Assembly (NCBI RefSeq): GCF_002979915.1
Contig: NZ_PCQA01000004.1
Coordinates: forward strand, 372,001-436,000
Source: Arthrobacter sp. MYb213
GTDB taxonomy: Bacteria > Actinomycetota > Actinomycetes > Actinomycetales > Micrococcaceae
Length of the DNA stretch: 64,000 bases
Reading direction: 5' to 3'
In this document: one piece after another, positions 5,166 through 41,553 of the stretch
Layout: the number at the start of each line of letters is the position of its first letter
Position numbering within the stretch: position 1 is the first letter of the stretch
The notes under the pieces: generated by a model
Database searches by the model: none
Told to the model about the DNA's origin: nothing
Seen by the model: only the letters and a program-made list of their open reading frames with translations
Position numbers and translations under genes: made by a program

Positions 5166-6611
5166 CTAACCCATACTCTTGGTTGGTAGCTCCTCAGAAT
5201 CCCACTTCGCAATAATCCGAACCAAAGAACGCGGACGCTGCGGAGTCACCACAATACCCTTCACCAGCTCCCGAAGAATAGCCTTACGACGCTCAACCGG
5301 CAACACCTCCCACTGACCCAGCAGATCCGCGTCCATCGCGGCCGGCCGAGCAACCGAAGCAACCCGAGCATCTCGCAACTGATCCTCCAACCGAGCCTTC
5401 TCACCGGCCAGCTGATCACGCATCCGCTCATACACATCCCCAGGCACCAACCCATCCAACAACCTGGTGGTCAAAGAATCACGCCGACCCTCCACCTTCA
5501 TCAGCGCTCGCCGTAGTTTGGGTGTGGGGTCGTGGTGGGGTAGCTCGGTGTGGTTGGCTTCGGCTGCCTGATTGATTTGCGTGGCCAGCTCGGTGATCCA
5601 TGGAAGGACTGCTTGGTTCAGAGTTTGGGTGGAGACATACCCGCCTTTGTGTAGCCGGTAGCTTCCGTAGCCATCGCACCGGTAGGCCGAGACTGTGTCG
5701 TCTCCGACTCGTCCTCCGGAGTACTTGTGCCCGCAGATTCCGCAGTACAGCATTCCAGAGTAGGGATAATCGGTCATTGATTTGTTCGGTGCCCGGTGTC
5801 GTCGTTTGCGTGCAACCTGGTAAGCCTCGAACAGTTCTGGATCCACGAGCGGTTCATGGGCTCCGGCGTGGACTTCACCTTTGTAGATGATGTGGCCGGT
5901 CATGAAGGGGGAGTCCAGCGCGGAGCGTAGGGACTTGGTGTGCCATAGTCCGGTGGTGTTGGGCTTGCTCGCTTTTACTGGCGCCATGTCTGTGGTCTCT
6001 AGGTAGTCGCAGAGTACTTGAACGCTGTCTCCGGCGATGAACCGTCGGTAGCATTCTCGGATGATCGCGGCTTCGCCAGTGTTGATGGTGTAGCCGGCGT
6101 TCCGGTCGTAGTCGTACCCGAGTTTGCGCTTACCGTGGGTGGGTAGACCTTGGGTGACTCGGCGTGCTTGGGCTTCTTTCCAGGTGTCACCGATCCTCTC
6201 GGATTCGAACGCCGCAAATTCTGCGAGCATCCCGCGGGCGAAGCGTCCGGTGGAAGTGCTCACGTCTACTTGCTCGGTTGCTGATTCGATACGGCCGCCG
6301 GCGGTTTCTACTTTGTCGATGGCCACAGCCCAGTCAAGGCGTGCACGGGAGAGGCGCGACCATTTCCAGAGAATGATCACGTCGGCTTGCTGTGACTCGA
6401 TCATGGTCATGACGCGCTGCACTGCTGGCCGGTTCCAGGTGCGTCCGCTGATGCCGTGATCTGCTTCGACAGCGACGACGGTATAGCCTGCCTGGGCGGC
6501 GTAGCGTCGGCCTGCATCCTCTTGGACCTCGAGGCTGATTGATTCTTCCTTGGCCACGGATTGGCGTAGGTAGAGGACGGCGCGCGGCCGTGGGGTGGTT
6601 TGTGGATTCAT
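5166..6611 (-). CDS. large serine recombinase (phage integrase)
   Basis: This 481-residue protein integrates and, with a directionality factor, excises the prophage. The resolvase-type catalytic domain is at the N-terminus: YLRQS gives the nucleophile Ser, followed by ADHGISGRTWNRPA and WKWSRLSRA. The recombinase domain follows, with a zinc-ribbon segment (YCGICGHKY and YRCDG), and a coiled C-terminal tail rich in Arg and Glu. The frame opens at a GTG at 6620, but that codon overlaps the AGGAG; the ATG at 6611 lies eight bases after AGGAG and is chosen. Its stop is 9 bp from attL, as is common for serine integrase genes flanking attP. No recombination directionality factor was recognised elsewhere. 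Confidence 0.95.
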   Translation of the reverse strand: MNPQTTPRPRAVLYLRQSVAKEESISLEVQEDAGRRYAAQAGYTVVAVEADHGISGRTWNRPAVQRVMTMIESQQADVIILWKWSRLSRARLDWAVAIDKVETAGGRIESATEQVDVSTSTGRFARGMLAEFAAFESERIGDTWKEAQARRVTQGLPTHGKRKLGYDYDRNAGYTINTGEAAIIRECYRRFIAGDSVQVLCDYLETTDMAPVKASKPNTTGLWHTKSLRSALDSPFMTGHIIYKGEVHAGAHEPLVDPELFEAYQVARKRRHRAPNKSMTDYPYSGMLYCGICGHKYSGGRVGDDTVSAYRCDGYGSYRLHKGGYVSTQTLNQAVLPWITELATQINQAAEANHTELPHHDPTPKLRRALMKVEGRRDSLTTRLLDGLVPGDVYERMRDQLAGEKARLEDQLRDARVASVARPAAMDADLLGQWEVLPVERRKAILRELVKGIVVTPQRPRSLVRIIAKWDSEELPTKSMG

Positions 6612-6680
6612 CGGAATCACTCCTGTGGTGGAGATGTCTTCTACTTTGGGCGCGACTGATCACGGAATGTGGATCAGTGG

Positions 6681-14867: not shown

Positions 14868-15680
14868 ATGGACAACGCCCTTGAAACAAGAAGACCAGTC
14901 ATCGAAAGCAGAGGCTCCGGTCTAGCAGTCACATCAGAAACCATCGCCCAAGGCGCAGGCATCGAGCACCGCGCAGTGCTCCAACTGCTCAAAACGCATA
15001 CCAATGGAATCGAGAGGTTCGGAAGGGTCGCATTTGAAGTGCGTACCTTCGAAACCGCCGGAGGACCACAATCGAAGAACGTCGCGCTCCTGAATGAACC
15101 ACAGGCAACACTCATCATGACTTTCATGAAGAACACGGCACAAGTAGTCAACTTCAAGGTCGCACTCGTCCAAGCGTTCTACGAGATGGCCGAGCAGCTC
15201 ACCGACCAGCGCTCGCCGATGTCTGAGGATGACATTGTCGCGCAGGCTTTGCAGATCACCAGTGCGCGAGTCAAAGCGTTGGAGTCCAAGGTGGAGCAGG
15301 ACGCGCCGAAGGTTGATTACGTGGATACCTTCGTCGCCGACGAGGACCTGATCAGTCTGCGCACGCTCGCATCTGATTTGAAGATCGGTGAGACCCAGCT
15401 CCGCGCGCTGCTTGTGGATAAGAAGTGGATTTACAAGCAGGAGTCTTCACGGTATTCGGAGAAGAAGGGGCGCACGGTGCCGGTCTACCGGTACAGCGCC
15501 ACCGCGGACAAGAAGAAGTACTTCCATGCAGTACTCGCTCATGATGCTCCACGGTTCAAGGGCGAAGTGATGCACACACTCAAAGCCACCGCGCAGGGTG
15601 CCGTGGCCATCACCAGGCTGCTCAACGGCCTCAGAAGAGACATGCACTCAATCCAACTGGCAAAGGGGCCAACATCATGA
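14868..15680 (+). CDS. Rha-type antirepressor with KilAC-like C-terminal domain
   Basis: A 270-residue phage regulatory protein. Residues 1-110 match the Rha family (GLAVTSETIAQGAGIEHRAV, QATLIMTFMKN.AQVVNFKVALVQAFYEM). The C-terminal half is a KilAC-type DNA-binding domain (LRTLASDLKIGETQLRALL, YRYSATADKKKYFHAVLAHD). Such proteins act as antirepressors or host-interference regulators during lytic growth. GAGAGGA precedes the ATG, and the stop overlaps the next ATG by four bases. Confidence 0.88.
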   Translation: MDNALETRRPVIESRGSGLAVTSETIAQGAGIEHRAVLQLLKTHTNGIERFGRVAFEVRTFETAGGPQSKNVALLNEPQATLIMTFMKNTAQVVNFKVALVQAFYEMAEQLTDQRSPMSEDDIVAQALQITSARVKALESKVEQDAPKVDYVDTFVADEDLISLRTLASDLKIGETQLRALLVDKKWIYKQESSRYSEKKGRTVPVYRYSATADKKKYFHAVLAHDAPRFKGEVMHTLKATAQGAVAITRLLNGLRRDMHSIQLAKGPTS

Positions 15681-16120
15681 GCATCTTCGAAACTTCGGCA
15701 GACTGCCGGGAAATGAAGCACCAGACCTGCTACGGCCGTGCCTGGAACGACGCCACGGATTCCGAGGGGGAGTGCCAGTGCAACTGCCACGAACCGGAGG
15801 AAGTAGTCGTGGCGCCGGTCGATCCGATCCAAGTGTGGGTCTACGTCGAACCACTGAGAAACGCTGAATCAGCGGACACACTCCGTGCACTGAAACGCAT
15901 GGACATCTCGCACAGGATCGTCGAGGTTGTCTCCGGGCAGGGAGTACTCCCGGCCGAGTTCAAACTTGCGGCCGCGGAACTTGGCGTGAAAGTGCAGCTG
16001 CCTTGCGTGGAAGTCTACGATCCGAACACCGAGGACACCGACACCTGGTTCGGGTATCTGCCGGACAAGATCCGGGAGCTCAGAGGCAAGATCACTAACT
16101 CGCAAGGAGGCGCATCATGA
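15677..16120 (+). CDS. Cys-rich N-terminus fused to an NrdH/glutaredoxin-like domain lacking CxxC
   Basis: A 147-residue protein. Residues 10-40 hold a zinc-finger-like cluster (DCREMKHQTC, then CQCNCH). The rest aligns by eye with the NrdH/glutaredoxin fold: VWVYVEP at the first strand, an ALKRMDISHRIVEVV helix-strand, a LPCVEVYD strand in the cis-Pro position, and GYLPDKIREL at the end. At the redox site the usual CxxC is replaced by residues of EPLRNAES, so it should not reduce ribonucleotide reductase. It is coupled to both neighbours by ATGA overlaps. Confidence 0.6.
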   Translation: MSIFETSADCREMKHQTCYGRAWNDATDSEGECQCNCHEPEEVVVAPVDPIQVWVYVEPLRNAESADTLRALKRMDISHRIVEVVSGQGVLPAEFKLAAAELGVKVQLPCVEVYDPNTEDTDTWFGYLPDKIRELRGKITNSQGGAS

Positions 16121-16410
16121 GCACCGAAACCATCACCGTTCAAACCATGGGCGAAGACGGCGACCAGTGGCTAGTCACCGGCACCACCGACGCTCACAGT
16201 GCTGATGAAGCTGTACGCCAGCATGTCGAGCATGAGTCCGGAGAAACCATTGAGGCTCTGACGGATGCAGACGAGCTGGTCGAATTCGCATTCCAACACC
16301 GTACGGACTGGGCGTGGGTCTCCATACAGCATGGAGAAAAGTTACTTGTCCACCGTGAGTACAGCGGGTCTCGAATCAAATTCGCTGGCTACCTGGTGAG
16401 TGCAGCATGA
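16117..16410 (+). CDS. hypothetical early phage protein (97 aa)
   Basis: A 97-residue acidic protein with a predicted beta-rich N-terminus and no recognised motif. ATGA overlaps join it to both neighbours; AAGGAGG sits upstream of its start. Part of a chain of small coupled genes from 14868 to 17941. Confidence 0.6.
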   Translation: MSTETITVQTMGEDGDQWLVTGTTDAHSADEAVRQHVEHESGETIEALTDADELVEFAFQHRTDWAWVSIQHGEKLLVHREYSGSRIKFAGYLVSAA

Positions 16411-32956: not shown

Positions 32957-34024
32957 ATGAAGGGAACACGAGTATGGAGCGTCTCAGCCACTAACTTCGC
33001 TGACAAAGCACTCATCAGTCCCACCGACTGTCCCTGGTCGAGAGCACCCAACGCCGGAGCAAGCCACACCGCAGGATTCAACGTCAACGATGTAGCCACC
33101 AAAGCTCACATGAAAGCAGGGCTACTCGAACCCATGGAGCGGTTCATCGTCGTAGAAGACGGCGGTGTAGTCACCTATGCCGGACTCATCTGGGATGACA
33201 ACTACACCAAGGACAATCAGTCCCTCACTATCACCCACGATGACATCTGGTCTATCTTCGACCTCCGCCTCATCTCCGAAGACCGCACGTCTTCCATCCC
33301 CAGCTGGAAGAAAACATACTCGGGCCTGTCCTACGACACCATCGCAAAACGCCTCATCCAACTGGCTACCACCGGAGTCGGACGCAACATCCCGATCCGC
33401 TACGAAGACGACTACACCGGCGGAGAAACGCGCACCTACAACGGGTACAACCTCGACACCGCACTCGACGCGATCACCGAAATCATGGATCTCGACGACG
33501 GACCAGACATCGACTTCCGACCAGAGTGGGCGCCCGATGGCTCCCTACGCTGGACCATGCGAACCGGCGACCTCAGCCCAGAAGCACAAACCATCGAGGT
33601 CAACCTCGCAGCACCAAAAACAGACCTGAAAGGAGTCAGCTACAAACGCTCCGGACGAACCAAGGCCACACACCAGATAGCCATCGGCGAAGGCTCCGGC
33701 ATCGACATGCTCGTCGCCACAGCATCCCGCACCGGCCCGATCGCCCTCGAAGCCATCGATCAGTTCAAGAACATCAAAGACGCCACCCAGCTGCAGAAGA
33801 ACGCCAACTCCGCTCTCGCCGCACGCAAGCTCATCAGTCAGATCGATTTCAGCATCCGCGCTGATTCGGCACGCTTCGGCAACATGTGGGATCTCAAACC
33901 CGGCACACTCGTTCGCTGGTACAGCATTGATGACCCCCGAATACCAGACGGCTGGCACACCTCCGAAATTATCAAGTACTCCGGCAACGTCACCAGCGAC
34001 TGGATCAAACTCGAACTTCAATAA
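32957..34024 (+). CDS. tail hub / minor tail protein (Gp37-like)
   Basis: A 355-residue protein following the Dit gene. LLEPMERFIVVEDGGVVTYA and GLIWDDNYTKDNQSLTITHD, with later YDTIAKRLIQLA and DFSIRADSARFGNMWDLKPG, are the pattern of siphovirus hub proteins (Gp37-like in Rhodococcus/Gordonia phages). It probably closes the tail tube until infection. Confidence 0.75.
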   Translation: MKGTRVWSVSATNFADKALISPTDCPWSRAPNAGASHTAGFNVNDVATKAHMKAGLLEPMERFIVVEDGGVVTYAGLIWDDNYTKDNQSLTITHDDIWSIFDLRLISEDRTSSIPSWKKTYSGLSYDTIAKRLIQLATTGVGRNIPIRYEDDYTGGETRTYNGYNLDTALDAITEIMDLDDGPDIDFRPEWAPDGSLRWTMRTGDLSPEAQTIEVNLAAPKTDLKGVSYKRSGRTKATHQIAIGEGSGIDMLVATASRTGPIALEAIDQFKNIKDATQLQKNANSALAARKLISQIDFSIRADSARFGNMWDLKPGTLVRWYSIDDPRIPDGWHTSEIIKYSGNVTSDWIKLELQ

Positions 34025-35980: not shown

Positions 35981-37801
35981 GTGGCATGGGTAGAAATAGC
36001 CGACCTCAAAGGCGGCAAGGGCGATAAGGGTGACACCGGACCAATGGGTGGGTTCCAGGCCGGGCAATCTGCTCCGTCGAATCTTCTCAACGCTTACGGC
36101 GGAACCTATGAAGGCTCGTACCGTGTAGCGACAGATGGTGCAGCGACAGCAACCATAGGTTCACCATCTGGTGCGAAAGCTGGCAACGTTTCCATCTGGC
36201 CTCTAGGGTCGGCAGCAGCAATCCTTGTGTGGCGAAACTCAGACGATGGGCGCGAGTGGCAGCGCTCCGTAGGCAGTAGCAGTACTTACATCACTGATTG
36301 GGTTGAAACACTCCGCAAGGGGTCGAAGCGAGTAGCTGAACCTCTCACCTTGGCAGGATCGGCAACGGTCAATTCTGATTCTGATGTGGGTGTCCGCATT
36401 CCGTTCCGGGTGCCAGCTAACGTTCGACGCTGGCGAGTCTACATTCGCAACTACAACGACCGAACCACTACCGCCTATCCGGGCTCCCTGAACTTTACGG
36501 GAGTGACCATTGGTAAAGGTGCCGTCAATGCGGAGGGGCGACCTACTGGGCAGTTCGCGGGCGATAAGTTCCCGGTGTCTAGTTCGTTCGTTTCAAGCGA
36601 GGCAGGTTCGCAATGGTCTTCTCTCTGGCAGACTTACGAGCTTGTGCCTGGGCAGGAGTATGTCCTTTCGTACGGTTACAAGAGTCCCGCGCAGAATAAC
36701 CATGCGTCGGTTGGTGGAGGTTTTCTTACCAGTGGTGGGTCTGCTGCGATCAACACTGACGGCCACCCTCTCACGAAAACTCAGTCAGTTCCGTTGGACG
36801 TGTGGATTGCGTTTGACGTTGATGAGCACGTACCGCAGTACGCGTACTTCGGCGATTCACTCACTGCTGGTGTTTCAGCTGATCTGCCTGTCTACGATTC
36901 GTGGGCTAAGCGTCACGCTCACGCGAATGGTGCGTTCGCGCAGATCTACGCGTACTCAGGAACTGGCTATTCAGAGTGGGCTTCGTCCCTAAAGTTTGGG
37001 CTCAACAAGTACGTGACGTTCTCGGGCATTCGAAAGCCGGAAGTCCTATACAACGCGATGGGCTCTAACGGTCTTGCTGGGTCTAACGTCTCGCAGATGA
37101 AAGCTCAGATGGAAACCTCGCTGGACACTATCCGACAGGTTGTGTGTACGGAGATCATCAATGTCACTGTACTTCCACGTCTAAACGGTTCAGATTCCTT
37201 TGAAGTGAACCGCAAGGCGTGGAACCAGTACATGATCGACCAGGTTCCAGGTGGCGCGTTGATGACCGTTGACGCGGCAGCCGCGCTGACTGATGCTTCG
37301 GGTGGAGTGTTGGATGCGAAGTGGCGTGAAAGCCCCACGAATATTCACCTGAACTATGCCGGGTATGCGCAGTATGCGAACGCGGTAGCGCGTGGGGCCG
37401 GTGGTGGAGGCGCGGCTATCGCTACAGCGGCAACAGTATCAACGTTGCCGGGAGCCTCTGCTTCTAACCGTGGTCTGATCATCTTCGTTGTTTCAGAGAA
37501 TAAGCCGTACTACTCCAATGGAACGTCGTGGAGTTCACTTTCTGATGGGCCTCAAGGAGATCCGGGACCGGCAGGTCCTGGTGTTCCTTCTGGGGGTGCC
37601 GCATTCCAGTACATCCGTAAGAACTCCGCGGGCACAACCACTGAGTGGGCAACCCTGAACCCCACGACTATCGGCCTTGGAAGTGTGAATAACACGCCGG
37701 ACGCAGACAAGCCTGTGTCCGGTCCTCAGTCGGCAGCGTTGAACCTCAAACAAGACAAACTCGTCAAAGACCCGGAGGGGTTCTACCTCATAGGAGGATA
37801 A
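35981..37801 (+). CDS. tail fibre protein with collagen-like repeats and SGNH-hydrolase domain
   Basis: A 606-residue tail protein starting at a GTG. A collagen-like GGKGDKGDTGP lies at residues 10-20, a jelly-roll-like part at about 100-270, then an SGNH hydrolase domain: YFGDSLTAG (Ser293), an AMGSNG segment at block III, and NIHLNYAGY (His456). The Asp usually three residues before the His is Thr453, so a Ser-His dyad may be used or activity lost. A second collagen-like segment (GPQGDPGPAGPG) comes near residue 530. SGNH fibres often remove O-acetyl groups from surface glycans. Confidence 0.82.
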   Translation: MAWVEIADLKGGKGDKGDTGPMGGFQAGQSAPSNLLNAYGGTYEGSYRVATDGAATATIGSPSGAKAGNVSIWPLGSAAAILVWRNSDDGREWQRSVGSSSTYITDWVETLRKGSKRVAEPLTLAGSATVNSDSDVGVRIPFRVPANVRRWRVYIRNYNDRTTTAYPGSLNFTGVTIGKGAVNAEGRPTGQFAGDKFPVSSSFVSSEAGSQWSSLWQTYELVPGQEYVLSYGYKSPAQNNHASVGGGFLTSGGSAAINTDGHPLTKTQSVPLDVWIAFDVDEHVPQYAYFGDSLTAGVSADLPVYDSWAKRHAHANGAFAQIYAYSGTGYSEWASSLKFGLNKYVTFSGIRKPEVLYNAMGSNGLAGSNVSQMKAQMETSLDTIRQVVCTEIINVTVLPRLNGSDSFEVNRKAWNQYMIDQVPGGALMTVDAAAALTDASGGVLDAKWRESPTNIHLNYAGYAQYANAVARGAGGGGAAIATAATVSTLPGASASNRGLIIFVVSENKPYYSNGTSWSSLSDGPQGDPGPAGPGVPSGGAAFQYIRKNSAGTTTEWATLNPTTIGLGSVNNTPDADKPVSGPQSAALNLKQDKLVKDPEGFYLIGG

Positions 37802-37804
37802 GCA

Positions 37805-39787
37805 ATGGCTGACCGCCTCGTACCAATAGACGAAAACTATCGCTTCCCAGCGCCACTGGAAGCACGCCTAGCGGGAAACTTCGCTGGGCTTACTGAGGGG
37901 AAAGTCCCTGTAGATCAGTTGCCAACTGACGCGCTGGTAACTGACGCTAACGTCGCCGCGCAGATCAATGGTACTCAAACGGGTACTGCTATCGACTCAC
38001 GCATCACCACGCAAGCAACTCCGCTAGTCCAGCCAATTGTCGCTGATTATATCGCATCAAGCCAAGTAGTCGTAGATGCTGCGGCGGCGGCTGTAAACGC
38101 GAACCCGAAGATTCAGGAGCTTCAACACGGAGTAACGCTGTCAGGAGTGGTTGACATGAACACTCTGACGACCCCCAATAAGTACCTGATCAGTAGTTCA
38201 GTGGCAGGAACGCTAGTCAATGGGCCACGCGTTCCCGGCGCTGGCTCCGTGGAAGTACTCCCCAACGGCGGTTCGGGAATCACCCAGCGCTACCAGATGA
38301 ACAACGGATTCAACCAACCTCGTGTCGTTGAACGGGCGGGCGCTAACAACGGGACAGGCTTCGGCGCTTGGGTGCCGATGACAAGTATTCCTGAACCGTT
38401 GGTGCAGGGTGAAAACATTTCTACGCTGACTGTTCCGGGTGACTATGTCGCTTCAACCCCAACAATCGCAACCAGCATCGTGGGTAAACCCGACGCCGCA
38501 CAAGGCAAGCCGTTCGCGCTAAAGGTCGAAACGTCGTGGACGTCGCTCACCGCACACCGTACCGTGCACAAGCTGACGCTATTACCCTATGCGCAAGGTG
38601 AGCTCCCGCGCCAATTCGTGAAATCGTTCACCCAAGAAGGGGTCCTATCAGACTGGGTAGAAGATAGCCAAGCACCACTCCTCTCCGCAGCGTACCCATT
38701 CGGGCACAAACGAGGTTTGATGCGCCAGGAATCTAAGCTTCGTCGTGGTGGACGCGTCGGAACGTCTGGGGCGACACCTGTGGCCTTGTCCTTTGATCAT
38801 GGCTTTGCCAACTTCCGAGATTTTGTCCTACCTCATTTGAAGCGCCTAGGACTTCCATGCTCGGTTGCCGTGAATACCAGCACCCTCGGTTCAGGAGAAT
38901 CTCTGGGTGTGTCATACGCCGAGCTGCAAGCGTACTCACTGAATAGTGGCGTGGAGCTTTGCCACCACTCCCGAGACCACGGCGATGTGGGGTTCGCATT
39001 GACGAACACGACTGCACTGCGAGACAAAATTTTGGGGCCAATCCAGCTCATTGAGGATGGTTGCCCTGAATGTGTTGCGGACGCATACATTATGCCCGGC
39101 GTTAGCGGAACCCAATACCAAGGCTTCAACGCTGGTGTGCCGTACAAAAACTGGTGGGAGCACCCTGCTGGCCGAATCATCATTGACAACTTCCCCGTCG
39201 TTACCGGGATCTTGCCTGGGCAGGGCGTTCCGATGTTGGGCGAGCCAGTCGATGGGGTAGGGCGGATCGGCTGGGATTCCAGTTCGTGGGCCACTGAAAC
39301 CAGGAATCGGATCCAATCACTATCTGGCACTGGGCTTGGTACTCATATATACATGCACCCTTCGTTCATCAACAACGGAATCACTGATGCCGCTGTGGTA
39401 ACGATGCTGGAATGGCTAGCGGAACAACGTGATGCCGGGCAGATCGAAGTGCTCACTGTGTCTGGTTTCTCGTGGGCTGACACGTCGGAAATGAGGATGA
39501 AACTGTCAAAGGAATCTGCATGGGTTGATGATACGACTGTGTTGGAATTAGCTCCATTGCATGAGTACTTGCGGGGATCTCAGGTCATGCTTTCGGGGGT
39601 GTCATCTGCCGGTGGGCAGGTCACTTTGACGGCGACAAGTGACGCTGGCGGGCTGAATGCCTCGGTGACGCAAACGGTCGTGGCGGGCGGCAAGGCTCGC
39701 TTGTGCTTCAGCGTCCCAAAGAGTACTACCACCATCACGCTAACATCAACAGGCGGGCTTAACAGCCGTGAAGTGACCGCCGTTTAG
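37805..39787 (+). CDS. tail fibre/spike protein with polysaccharide-deacetylase-like domain
   Basis: A 660-residue protein. The N-terminal about 300 residues are fibre-like (LTEGKVPVDQLPTDALVTDA, GSGITQRYQMNNGFNQPRVV). A NodB-like domain follows: LSFDHG (Asp331, His332 where the classic motif has TFDDG) and the metal motif H388-S-x-x-H392 in ELCHHSRDHGD, then a C-terminal beta domain. It probably de-N- or O-acetylates a host wall polysaccharide during adsorption. A strong hairpin follows. Confidence 0.8.
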   Translation: MADRLVPIDENYRFPAPLEARLAGNFAGLTEGKVPVDQLPTDALVTDANVAAQINGTQTGTAIDSRITTQATPLVQPIVADYIASSQVVVDAAAAAVNANPKIQELQHGVTLSGVVDMNTLTTPNKYLISSSVAGTLVNGPRVPGAGSVEVLPNGGSGITQRYQMNNGFNQPRVVERAGANNGTGFGAWVPMTSIPEPLVQGENISTLTVPGDYVASTPTIATSIVGKPDAAQGKPFALKVETSWTSLTAHRTVHKLTLLPYAQGELPRQFVKSFTQEGVLSDWVEDSQAPLLSAAYPFGHKRGLMRQESKLRRGGRVGTSGATPVALSFDHGFANFRDFVLPHLKRLGLPCSVAVNTSTLGSGESLGVSYAELQAYSLNSGVELCHHSRDHGDVGFALTNTTALRDKILGPIQLIEDGCPECVADAYIMPGVSGTQYQGFNAGVPYKNWWEHPAGRIIIDNFPVVTGILPGQGVPMLGEPVDGVGRIGWDSSSWATETRNRIQSLSGTGLGTHIYMHPSFINNGITDAAVVTMLEWLAEQRDAGQIEVLTVSGFSWADTSEMRMKLSKESAWVDDTTVLELAPLHEYLRGSQVMLSGVSSAGGQVTLTATSDAGGLNASVTQTVVAGGKARLCFSVPKSTTTITLTSTGGLNSREVTAV

Positions 39788-39870: not shown

Positions 39871-40227
39871 ATGCCTGAATGGCTTCCATCTCTCATAGTC
39901 ACCGTGATAATTATCTTCGCTGGGCTACTCGGCTGGCTGATCAAAGTTGCATGGCCTGTCGTCCGGAAATTGAGCCATTTCGTTGACGACGTGGTGGGCG
40001 AACCGGATCGGCCCGGTATCCCTGGAAGACCGGGTCTCATGGTGCGTGTAGCCCACATCGAGCACGAGGTAAAAACGAATCATGGATCCAGTTTGAAAGA
40101 TGCCGTGAAGCGGGTCGAGGAAAAGCAAGCGAAGCAGGGCGAACAGCTCGATGACCAATCAGACAAGATTGCAGAGCTTCACGAACGGTATACGAAGCCC
40201 AAAGAACACAAGCCACCCACTGAATAA
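39871..40227 (+). CDS. DUF2746-like membrane protein near the lysis cassette
   Basis: A 118-residue protein with one N-terminal transmembrane helix (LIVTVIIIFAGLLGWLIKVAW), a GRPGIPGRPG-type Pro/Gly turn (PDRPGIPGRPGLMVRVAHIEH), and an NHGSSLKDAVKRVE helix that continues as a coiled coil. This pattern recurs in actinophage DUF2746 proteins. AGGAG precedes the ATG. It may be a second holin-like or tail-associated membrane protein. Confidence 0.75.
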   Translation: MPEWLPSLIVTVIIIFAGLLGWLIKVAWPVVRKLSHFVDDVVGEPDRPGIPGRPGLMVRVAHIEHEVKTNHGSSLKDAVKRVEEKQAKQGEQLDDQSDKIAELHERYTKPKEHKPPTE

Positions 40228-40330: not shown

Positions 40331-40504
40331 ATGAGCGGAATCAAAGACGCGGAAGCTGGCAAAGCTGTCACCGCGCAGGACATCCCGGATGATGACCAGA
40401 CCTTGGACTGGGACGTGAAGCGCTTCGGCAACATGATCGACCACGCCTCCGACGAAGAACCCGCCACCGTTGCCGCCGGTTCTGGCGAGGAAGAAGGAAA
40501 CTAA
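40331..40504 (+). CDS. small acidic hypothetical protein (57 aa)
   Basis: The ATG at 40331 has AGGAA six bases ahead; the upstream part of the open frame covers the terminator. The product is very acidic with a central DDDQTLDWDVKRFG. Its stop overlaps the endolysin start (TAATG), so it is co-translated with lysis genes. Function unknown. Confidence 0.6.
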   Translation: MSGIKDAEAGKAVTAQDIPDDDQTLDWDVKRFGNMIDHASDEEPATVAAGSGEEEGN

Positions 40505-41553
40505 TGCCACGCATAACAACTCTTGTCCGCCACCTTGAAGCCCGAGGTTTGAAAGTCGAATACGTGAAGGGCTGGTCTACTCGTGGATCTTCCAGCTTCA
40601 ACCCGAAGGGGGTCATGGATCACTGGACGGCAGGGCCGAAAGGTTCCAAGTCTCGTCCATCGTTGCGTGTGGTGACCAACGGCCGGCCGGGGCTACCTGG
40701 TCCGCTGTGCAACGTTTACTTGGACCGCAAGGGCACCGCAGTAGTTGTGGCTGCTGGACGTGCGAACCATGGAGGTTACGGCTCGTGGAAGGGCCACACT
40801 GGAAACAGTAAGTTCTTCGGCATCGAGGCGGAGGCAGCGAACGCCAGTGACTGGACCGATGCCATGCGCGACGCCTACCCATCGGTGAACGCTGCGCTCT
40901 TGGATGCTATCAACGAGGACGATGCGTCGTACGTGTGCGGTCACTCCGAATACGCGTTACCGCGGGGCCGCAAGATCGACATCAACGGTTACACGATGGA
41001 CGATATGCGCGAGCAGACACAGGCAGTACTGCGTGGCGGGAAGGTGACTGCTAAGCCAAAACCGGCGCCGAAACCAAACACCAAGCCGAAGCCTAAGCCG
41101 AAGGTCAAGAAGCAGTGGAACGACAAGTTGCCCGACGGTTCCACTATCTTCCCAACTGACTACGAAGACCTGGTGCTCGATAAGGGCTTCGGTCAGATCA
41201 CTGTCGGAGCTTTCCAGATCCTCATGGAAGCGATCAAGATCGGTGTCCGTTACAACCAGCGATGGGACGGTGACTGGGGAAAGCTCAGCGTCAAAGACGG
41301 CATGGAGTGGCTACAGTCCAACGGTTACTACAAGGTCATGCAGCACGCCCGAGGTGGATACCCGAAGGGCACCAAGCTCAAGGTTGACGGCGGAGACGGC
41401 TACTGGTTCTGGTATGAGCTGCAGCGATTCCTCAAGGCCCGAGGCTTCTACAACAAAACCACTGAGGGTGTGCCGTTGAAGCTCGACGGTGACCCTGAAG
41501 GCTGGACCATTTACGGGTTCCAGCGTTACATGAACACTCAGAACGGAAGCTAG
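40504..41553 (+). CDS. endolysin, N-acetylmuramoyl-L-alanine amidase
   Basis: A 349-residue lysin. The N-terminal amidase-2/PGRP domain spans residues 1-180 with zinc ligands in VMDHWTAG, ANHGGYG, and HSEYALPRGRKIDI. A Lys/Pro linker (KPKPAPKPNTKPKPKPK) leads to a C-terminal wall-binding domain with repeats (FQILMEAIKIGVRYNQRWDG, WYELQRFLKARGFYN). It cuts the bond between muramic acid and the stem peptide to release virions, together with the holin 3 bp downstream. Confidence 0.93.
   Translation: MPRITTLVRHLEARGLKVEYVKGWSTRGSSSFNPKGVMDHWTAGPKGSKSRPSLRVVTNGRPGLPGPLCNVYLDRKGTAVVVAAGRANHGGYGSWKGHTGNSKFFGIEAEAANASDWTDAMRDAYPSVNAALLDAINEDDASYVCGHSEYALPRGRKIDINGYTMDDMREQTQAVLRGGKVTAKPKPAPKPNTKPKPKPKVKKQWNDKLPDGSTIFPTDYEDLVLDKGFGQITVGAFQILMEAIKIGVRYNQRWDGDWGKLSVKDGMEWLQSNGYYKVMQHARGGYPKGTKLKVDGGDGYWFWYELQRFLKARGFYNKTTEGVPLKLDGDPEGWTIYGFQRYMNTQNGS

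Follow-up and report, generated by a model that had tools for sequence, protein, structure and literature searches.

Adjacent tail-fibre genes of an Arthrobacter prophage bear SGNH-fold and NodB-fold heads, candidate deacylases of host-surface glycans

The DNA analysed here, a stretch of 64,000 nucleotides from Arthrobacter sp. MYb213 (the window), is part of a 3.79-Mb genome (contig 9) and carries a prophage. Matches to PHROG profiles place on its plus strand genes for a terminase, a major head protein, a tape measure protein, Dit-like and minor tail proteins and then two fibres, which are the subject of this study. The first fibre gene (35981-37801, plus strand, GTG start) encodes a protein of 606 residues, P1; the second (37805-39787, plus strand, ATG start) encodes one of 660 residues, P2; the gap between them is 3 bases. 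A preliminary description, made from the sequence, had proposed that these are consecutive fibre proteins and that the first has an SGNH hydrolase fold and the second a NodB deacetylase-like fold. Both proposals were borne out, the former by the position among tail genes and by the fibre folds described below, the latter by profiles built from relatives with the window rows excluded: P1 scored 333.5 bits with the SGNH profile and P2 scored 217.2 bits with the NodB profile, against best values of 7.3 and 6.1 bits for shuffled controls (n = 1000 sequences, 500 per protein). The residues that had been singled out were also found in place, namely GDS at 291-293 (Ser293) and SPTNIH with Thr453 and His456 in P1, and SFDHG with Asp331 and HHSRDH at 387-392 with His388 in P2. 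Because of the tail-tip neighbours, the collagen-like stretches and knob folds of the R-pyocin/phi11 type, and in agreement with the anchor of P2, we predict that P1 and P2 are receptor-binding fibres of a temperate siphophage.

P1 is organized as a collagen-like start, a knob-like region, a head made of a beta-sandwich and an SGNH domain, a second collagen-like stretch and a tail-fibre-like end. Its N-terminus, MAWVEIADLKGGKGDKGDTGP, is a short collagen-like stretch (Gly-X-Y repeats at 36011-36049, plus strand, residues 11-23 of the translation); comparable starts occur in relatives of P1, most of whose listed records carry the annotation tail protein or minor tail protein. The knob-like region (plus strand, residues about 23-112) is an unconfirmed call made by eye in a part of the structural model where the predicted local distance difference test score (pLDDT) is below 50. 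The beta-sandwich (36323-36820, plus strand, residues about 115-280; pLDDT 58-90 per block of ten) contains four residues, R150, R152, R156 and N159, that are invariant across the seven rows of an alignment of this protein (A2). It precedes the SGNH core (36842-37390, plus strand, residues about 288-470), delimited from profile matches and motif tables. The second collagen-like stretch, GPQGDPGPAGPG, covers residues 523-534 (37547-37582, plus strand), and residues 535-594 match a PHROG tail-fibre profile. With Pfam, P1 matches Lipase_GDSL_2 at E 2.5e-7 and 31.8 bits, below the curated cut-off of 32.9. The structural model of P1 is weak (mean pLDDT 50.5, with confidence below 50 past residue 423). 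Its best Protein Data Bank (PDB) matches in Foldseek are two-domain SGNH esterases (E 6.7e-12; template-modelling score TMt 0.55-0.61 for the best five); the matches comprise a polyvinyl alcohol esterase, acetyl xylan esterases and CE2 enzymes, and include the carbohydrate-binding module (CBM) of FjoAcXE (7tok, TMt 0.72), a match for which the output does not specify the aligned residues of the model.

The block I Ser, block II Gly, block III Asn and block V His of the SGNH superfamily are all present in P1 (S293, G327, N363 and H456) and are invariant in A2. Among 21 distinct SGNH rows of at least 300 residues, a set that includes near-duplicates (L028/L029, L069/L079, L064/L078), every row retains Ser, Asn and His and 20 retain Gly, viral contig L048 having Ser in its place. 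What P1 lacks is the Asp three residues before the block V His (DxxH), retained in 16 of the 21 rows. Its block V reads T453-N454-I455-H456 (37337-37348, plus strand), with the Asp at -3 replaced and an amide at -2. The five rows without this Asp have Thr (the window, gp18 of phage GoCrazy and G003), Val (G111) or Gly (L051) at -3, and every one of them has Asp or Asn at -2. All five sit in a single eight-row clade (support 100/99) whose other three rows are DxxH, with at least two changes between the states. The absence of the Asp in P1 thus looks like a change of register, to the DxH type, with Asn454 as the candidate partner of the His. The preliminary description had noted, correctly, that Thr453 stands at the Asp position of DxxH, but the residue that matters may be Asn454, two before His456; Thr453 as a lesion was rejected, since the register change fits better.

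Precedents for such an arrangement exist. A DxH register is found in CjCE2A (Asp333-His335) and in AlgJ, whereas CtCE2 and CjCE2B are active Ser-His dyads using a main-chain carbonyl (PMC2661963, PMC9487903), and in CE20 enzymes an Asp or Asn acts through water (PMC12313940). The block V Asp is accordingly usual rather than defining: some CE2 enzymes, AlgJ and an S. scabies esterase are without it (PMC2661963, PMC9487903). In the light of these precedents Thr453 alone is no sign of inactivity. We predict with good confidence that the SGNH head of P1 is catalytically active.

In the model of P2 a helical anchor is followed by two knob-like domains, the NodB head and a C-terminal beta-sandwich. 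The protein matches the tail protein profile phrog_11373 at E 4.4e-56. The anchor (37805-38137, plus strand, residues 1-111) starts with VPIDENYRFP and continues as a helical linker, model confidence being low over residues 1-83. For the two knob-like domains (38138-38674, plus strand, residues 112-290), VIA-align of residues 102-294 gave Z 13-14 to the P68 and phi11 fibres; Foldseek with the model returned R1 and R2 pyocin fibres, the host-recognition proteins of phi11 and 80alpha, and CE4 enzymes. The NodB-fold head (38717-39490, plus strand, residues 305-562; D331, H332, H388, H392, D491, H518) lies in a well-modelled region (pLDDT 75-97 per block of ten across residues 301-560). Aligned on NodB folds with VIA-align, residues 300-562 gave Z 19.2 with the turret protein of the archaeal virus HFTV1 (root-mean-square deviation 3.3, 217 residues aligned), 16.4 with 3rxz and mostly 14-16 with CE4 structures, whose distorted barrel is thus recognizable in P2. 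Structure prediction, proposed in the preliminary description as a check, therefore supports the NodB fold through a good model and yields only a poor one for the SGNH fold. The C-terminal beta-sandwich (39527-39784, plus strand, residues 575-660; pLDDT 80-95 per block from residue 591 and 59-65 before it) is possibly a CBM; Foldseek listed a porphyran-binding CBM (8xmz) with probability 1.00 and an E-value of 0.04, a match in which the aligned residues of the P2 model were not shown. A search of BFVD placed tail- or lysin-labelled proteins of Mudcat, Kumotta, Adaia and Atraxa on top. In Pfam, Polysacc_deac_1 matches P2 at E 0.0024 and 18.2 bits (curated cut-off 23.1). NCBIfam gave no match for P1 or P2, a search of plasmids with the NodB head gave none either, and the PDB, searched with each sequence by itself, yielded nothing of relevance, its one match (E 0.26) being due to chance; profile searches did find matches.

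In CE4 enzymes the first Asp of motif 1 (MT1, TFDD) is the catalytic base, the second Asp and the two His of MT2, H(S/T)xxH, bind the metal, and the MT5 His is the acid (PMC5855634; PMC7229062 agrees). P2 has the base Asp of MT1 (D331), and in place of the metal Asp it has H332 (codons 38795-38800, plus strand). MT2 is present as H388-S-R-D-H392. MT3, RxPY, is represented by MPG at 430-432, which keeps the Pro and has no Arg or Tyr. The acid His of MT5 is present as H518, followed by Pro rather than Asp, and D491 is the candidate for the MT4 Asp (Asp in 41, Glu in 14 and His in 1 of 56 rows of the clade defined below). As the metal Asp of MT1 is replaced by H332, we call P2 NodB-fold and CE4-like rather than a member of CE4. 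An alignment of 18 sequences (A1; the window and 17 relatives that are 21-27% identical to it) has as its only invariant columns G316, D331, H388, H392, G432 and H518. Among 76 distinct profile matches, including a few fragments and counted before any length filter, D331 is Asp in 74 of the 74 covering rows, and H388, H392 and H518 are each His in 73 of 73; position 332 is occupied by His in 50 rows and by Asp in 24.

The distribution of the two residues at 332 was followed on a tree of 71 rows, from which rows of fewer than 200 residues and one window fragment lacking position 518 had been removed (72 to 71 rows). This tree was built in quick mode: long branches meet where a fibre-type clade joins the rest, and the placement of the window is unsure; genomic context was read for part of the rows of the clade and for none of the 15 outgroup rows. 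The fibre-type clade comprises 56 of the 71 rows, with His at 332 in 48 and Asp in 8, and all 15 rows outside it have Asp. At least five Asp/His changes are required on the tree. An interchange of Asp and His with all else fixed is what one would expect of a working metal site, as decay would hit the other ligands too. The clade thus probably has a three-His metal site (332, 388 and 392), in which one metal ligand has been exchanged for another metal-binding residue, and its NodB heads are likely to be active. Decay of the window copy was rejected as the origin of the Asp-to-His change at 332, this being common to 47 of the 55 other rows of the clade. The clade is not confined to phages, since four of its Asp-His members whose surroundings were read are single, exported-looking proteins (L134:2530-3924, L135:6805-8151, L136:6263-7642 and L137:5815-7191), with starts that by eye resemble twin-arginine signals and no tail genes seen around them. 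The L134 gene is flanked by genes for large PQQ/FG-GAP repeat proteins, whose starts likewise resemble signals.

An SGNH and a NodB head are found side by side or fused in 4 of the 21 SGNH rows, a proportion biased upward, since the window was itself the query; flanks were usually read up to about 6 kb per side. Besides the window, these are L048 (same order), Arthrobacter phage GoCrazy (reversed order) and Mudcat, whose gp19 is a fusion. An obligatory two-component system was rejected, as in 17 of the 21 rows the flanks read are free of NodB heads. Adjacent double NodB fibres are found in Heisenberger, JEGGS and viral contigs L038 and L044. In searches of 395 genomes of the family the SGNH profile gave 17 matches and the NodB profile 35, some of these 35 being proteins that do not belong to the fibre-type clade. 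When IMG/VR was scanned with the P1 and P2 sequences alone, only the same prophage was recovered.

Heads are exchanged between related phages. The clearest case is G009, a prophage from the same genus, whose tape measure, Dit and tail-tip proteins are 96%, 92% and 94% identical to those of the window, yet whose fibres differ: the first begins with MAWIVLANLRGPAG and bears a NodB head of the Asp-Asp type, and the second (L128:2557-3759, 401 residues) has no Pfam match at E 0.01 and a C-terminal match to a PHROG minor-tail profile. In G003 (tail tip 85% identical) the stretch read contains an SGNH fibre, its head at 34%, and lacks a NodB head. In G011 an SGNH fibre is followed by one whose head is a SASA acetylesterase (PF03629, E 3.2e-32); this second fibre resembles the P2 anchor weakly (E 1.4e-4 when the genome was searched; 41% over 75 residues, E 0.099, when the two were compared directly). 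L048 has a P2 anchor 70% identical to that of the window over 90 residues, against 23.5% for the NodB head and 27% for the SGNH head.

Two of the records collected call for separate mention. In L071 (G174) the SGNH match crosses three in-frame TAG codons and the open part spans 369 residues, so that this copy may be broken or shortened. Over 7898 aligned columns, from a stretch of 9074 bases, "Pseudomonas phage Hadban" (L021, OR067381.1) is 95.0% identical to Arthrobacter phage Adaia (L020, MH834594.1), and the recorded host of Hadban, Pseudomonas aeruginosa, looks doubtful.

Elsewhere in the prophage, a gene for a serine-type recombinase lies at 5166-6620 on the minus strand. Upstream from the fibres, the gene for the tail-tip protein (32957-34024, plus strand) matches the minor tail protein profile phrog_1885. 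Immediately after the fibres come a probable holin gene (39871-40227, plus strand; phrog_15431 holin, E 1.9e-12, the best PHROG match being phrog_9869, of no known function) and a gene for an amidase 2 endolysin (40504-41553, plus strand; PF01510, E 1.1e-9; phrog_880 endolysin), beyond which host-type genes begin at about 42.4 kb.

The closest parallel is offered by the Mudcatvirus group, in which sequence relatives of both heads occur in adjacent fibres (gp17 and gp18 of GoCrazy) or fused (Mudcat gp19), and whose Mudcat proteins are the top matches among viral models. In these phages, however, the order is reversed or the heads are fused, the genes precede the tape measure gene and Mudcat gp18 is Asp-Asp; no similarity of anchors was found, and the annotations go no further than tail protein, minor tail protein or an SGNH-type esterase domain. 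Among structural matches of the NodB head the HFTV1 turret protein (L133 gp31, 15056-16297; PDB 8qpg) ranks first, though the HFTV1 paper, in the passages drawn on, reports no bacteriophage homologue (PMC12494034). It is a viral surface protein with a zinc-containing deacetylase-like domain for which deacetylation is only proposed (PMC12494034), and it differs from P2 in being part of an archaeal-virus capsid turret and in its Asp-Asp motif. A special sequence tie between the fibres and this turret was rejected: profiles from the fibre-type clade and from the outside rows scored 33.5 and 28.4 bits, as general NodB kinship would have it, and an earlier match of 43.1 bits came from a profile that mixed in rows from outside the fibre clade. 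With CE4 (NodB) deacetylases such as 7ax7 and SpPgdA (2c1g), P2 shares the fold, the catalytic base, the two metal His and the acid His; it differs by its His for the metal Asp, the absent MT3 Arg, HP for the HD of MT5 and a score below the Pfam cut-off.

P1 resembles the CE2 enzymes (CjCE2A, CjCE2B, CtCE2), PbeAcXE (7toh) and a polyvinyl alcohol esterase (9kr0) in having a beta-sandwich beside the SGNH domain and, as in CE2, a putative DxH or dyad arrangement in place of the DxxH triad. Those proteins are not fibres, identity is 11-17% in the eight best Foldseek alignments, and P1 has Asn at the Asp site. The CE2 structure 2waa is only the seventh match of the P1 model, other two-domain esterases scoring higher, while architecture and register agree with CE2. 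In its predicted function P1 is comparable to the SGNH tail fibres of phages of Gram-negative hosts (G7C gp63.1, Possum gp66 and those of Klebsiella prophages), receptor-binding fibres with host-glycan de-O-acetylation or esterase activity. O-deacetylation by Possum gp66 was demonstrated by nuclear magnetic resonance, and two Klebsiella prophage fibres were shown, in part, to have esterase activity on p-nitrophenyl acetate (PMC9569702, PMC13123978).

The gene order, the folds (resting on sequence and a weak model for SGNH, on a good model for NodB), the conservation, the clade-level substitutions and the exchange of fibres are best explained, in our moderately confident view, by two receptor-binding fibres, each with an exchangeable deacylase head for a host-surface glycan; catalysis, metal, substrate and role in adsorption are inferred. 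Head 1 would be a serine esterase that removes O-acyl groups by means of Ser293 and His456, with an oxyanion hole formed by G327 and N363; the His would be held in place by Asn454 or by a main-chain carbonyl. Head 2 would be a hydrolase with a metal on H332, H388 and H392, D331 as base and H518 as acid, removing an N- or O-acyl group. Through these heads, together or apart, the virion would bind, trim the glycan and proceed to a deeper receptor. The earlier suggestion that both heads act on acyl groups of glycans holds in so far as both folds come from acyl-hydrolase families, the activity itself being a prediction; that they share a single polymer is plausible, though we would rather bet against it.

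Several observations weigh against the deacylase interpretation. The geometry of His456 and Asn454 is not seen in the P1 model, which is poor after residue 423; the P2 model contains no metal. The textbook MT3 Arg is missing from the whole fibre-type clade. Arg329, two residues before the base in the same strand, may substitute for it, and here the window, alone among the 56 rows, has Ser (48 of the other 55 have Arg), a residue that resembles the Thr of TFDD. Position 463 (codon 39191-39193), a mostly conserved His of the clade, is His in 46 rows, Tyr in 8 and Phe in 2, the window and one other. Pro at 519 accompanies H332 in 47 of 48 clade rows and is found in 1 of the 8 Asp rows; this covariation could not be told apart from shared ancestry, supported branches yielding a single independent pair (sign test, p 1). 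One review states the MT1 roles the other way round, with the first Asp binding the metal (PMC10967932), and if this wording is correct H332 replaces the base and not a metal ligand. Finally, for Agd3, a fungal relative, the assay detected no activity once the metal Asp had been changed (D378N; PMC7229062), so that a change at this position is not obviously tolerated.

Because R329S and H463F depart from mostly conserved sites, activity of the window's own NodB head is less sure, and we rate it only slightly better than even. The same two changes, together with the Agd3 result and with the existence of NodB-family pseudoenzymes (such as BA3943, structures of which are among the P2 matches), lend themselves to the alternative in which only the SGNH fibre works, as an O-acyl esterase, and the window NodB fibre is a dead, lectin-like module degenerate at 329, 332 and 463. 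Against this, the base, both metal His, the acid His and D491 are all kept, and H332 is the norm of the clade and not a lesion of this copy; we regard the alternative as unlikely, while a binding-only NodB head in this prophage is possible given R329S and H463F. That both heads are binding modules, with the fold retained and catalysis lost, was suggested by the preliminary description from the altered motifs. Both sites do depart from the textbook motif. The changes, however, are common to relatives that keep the rest of the catalytic set, at 21-36% identity, and do not point simply to binding; and while the esterase site of CtCE2 gained a glycan-binding function, the enzyme retained its activity (PMC2661963). 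Loss of catalysis in both heads therefore strikes us as quite improbable. The genes for P1 and P2 directly precede those for holin and endolysin, gp25 of Arthrobacter phage MargaretKali is labelled lysin A, and a Curtobacterium study notes that enzyme genes near a lysis module can serve lysis or penetration (PMC9862828). The heads might thus act at release or in the matrix, for instance by stripping wall acyl groups that block the endolysin, but the anchor, the collagen-like stretches and the knob folds speak otherwise, as do the Mudcatvirus relatives, which sit among tail genes before the tape measure; this we hold to be very improbable.

Deacetylating tail fibres have already been demonstrated for phages of Gram-negative bacteria (PMC9569702, PMC13123978). 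Literature searches found no paper on the pairing of SGNH and NodB heads in actinophage tails, a pairing visible in public records, and no description of a three-His NodB metal site in the CE4 literature searched, which consisted of search listings and passages. Beyond the window, and more tentatively, with chances that we put a little short of even, a clade of NodB hydrolases from actinobacterial phage fibres, and from some exported-looking proteins, may use a three-His metal site and form, with SGNH and SASA-type heads, an interchangeable set of deacylases adapting phages to the acyl patterns of host walls. For actinobacterial phages, this opens a set of candidate deacylase heads to testing. 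The natural swap of a metal ligand from Asp to His, with both states among relatives, would, if real, probe the effect of the ligand on metal choice and acyl specificity. Fibres that differ while the tail tips are nearly identical make it directly testable how head type relates to host range.

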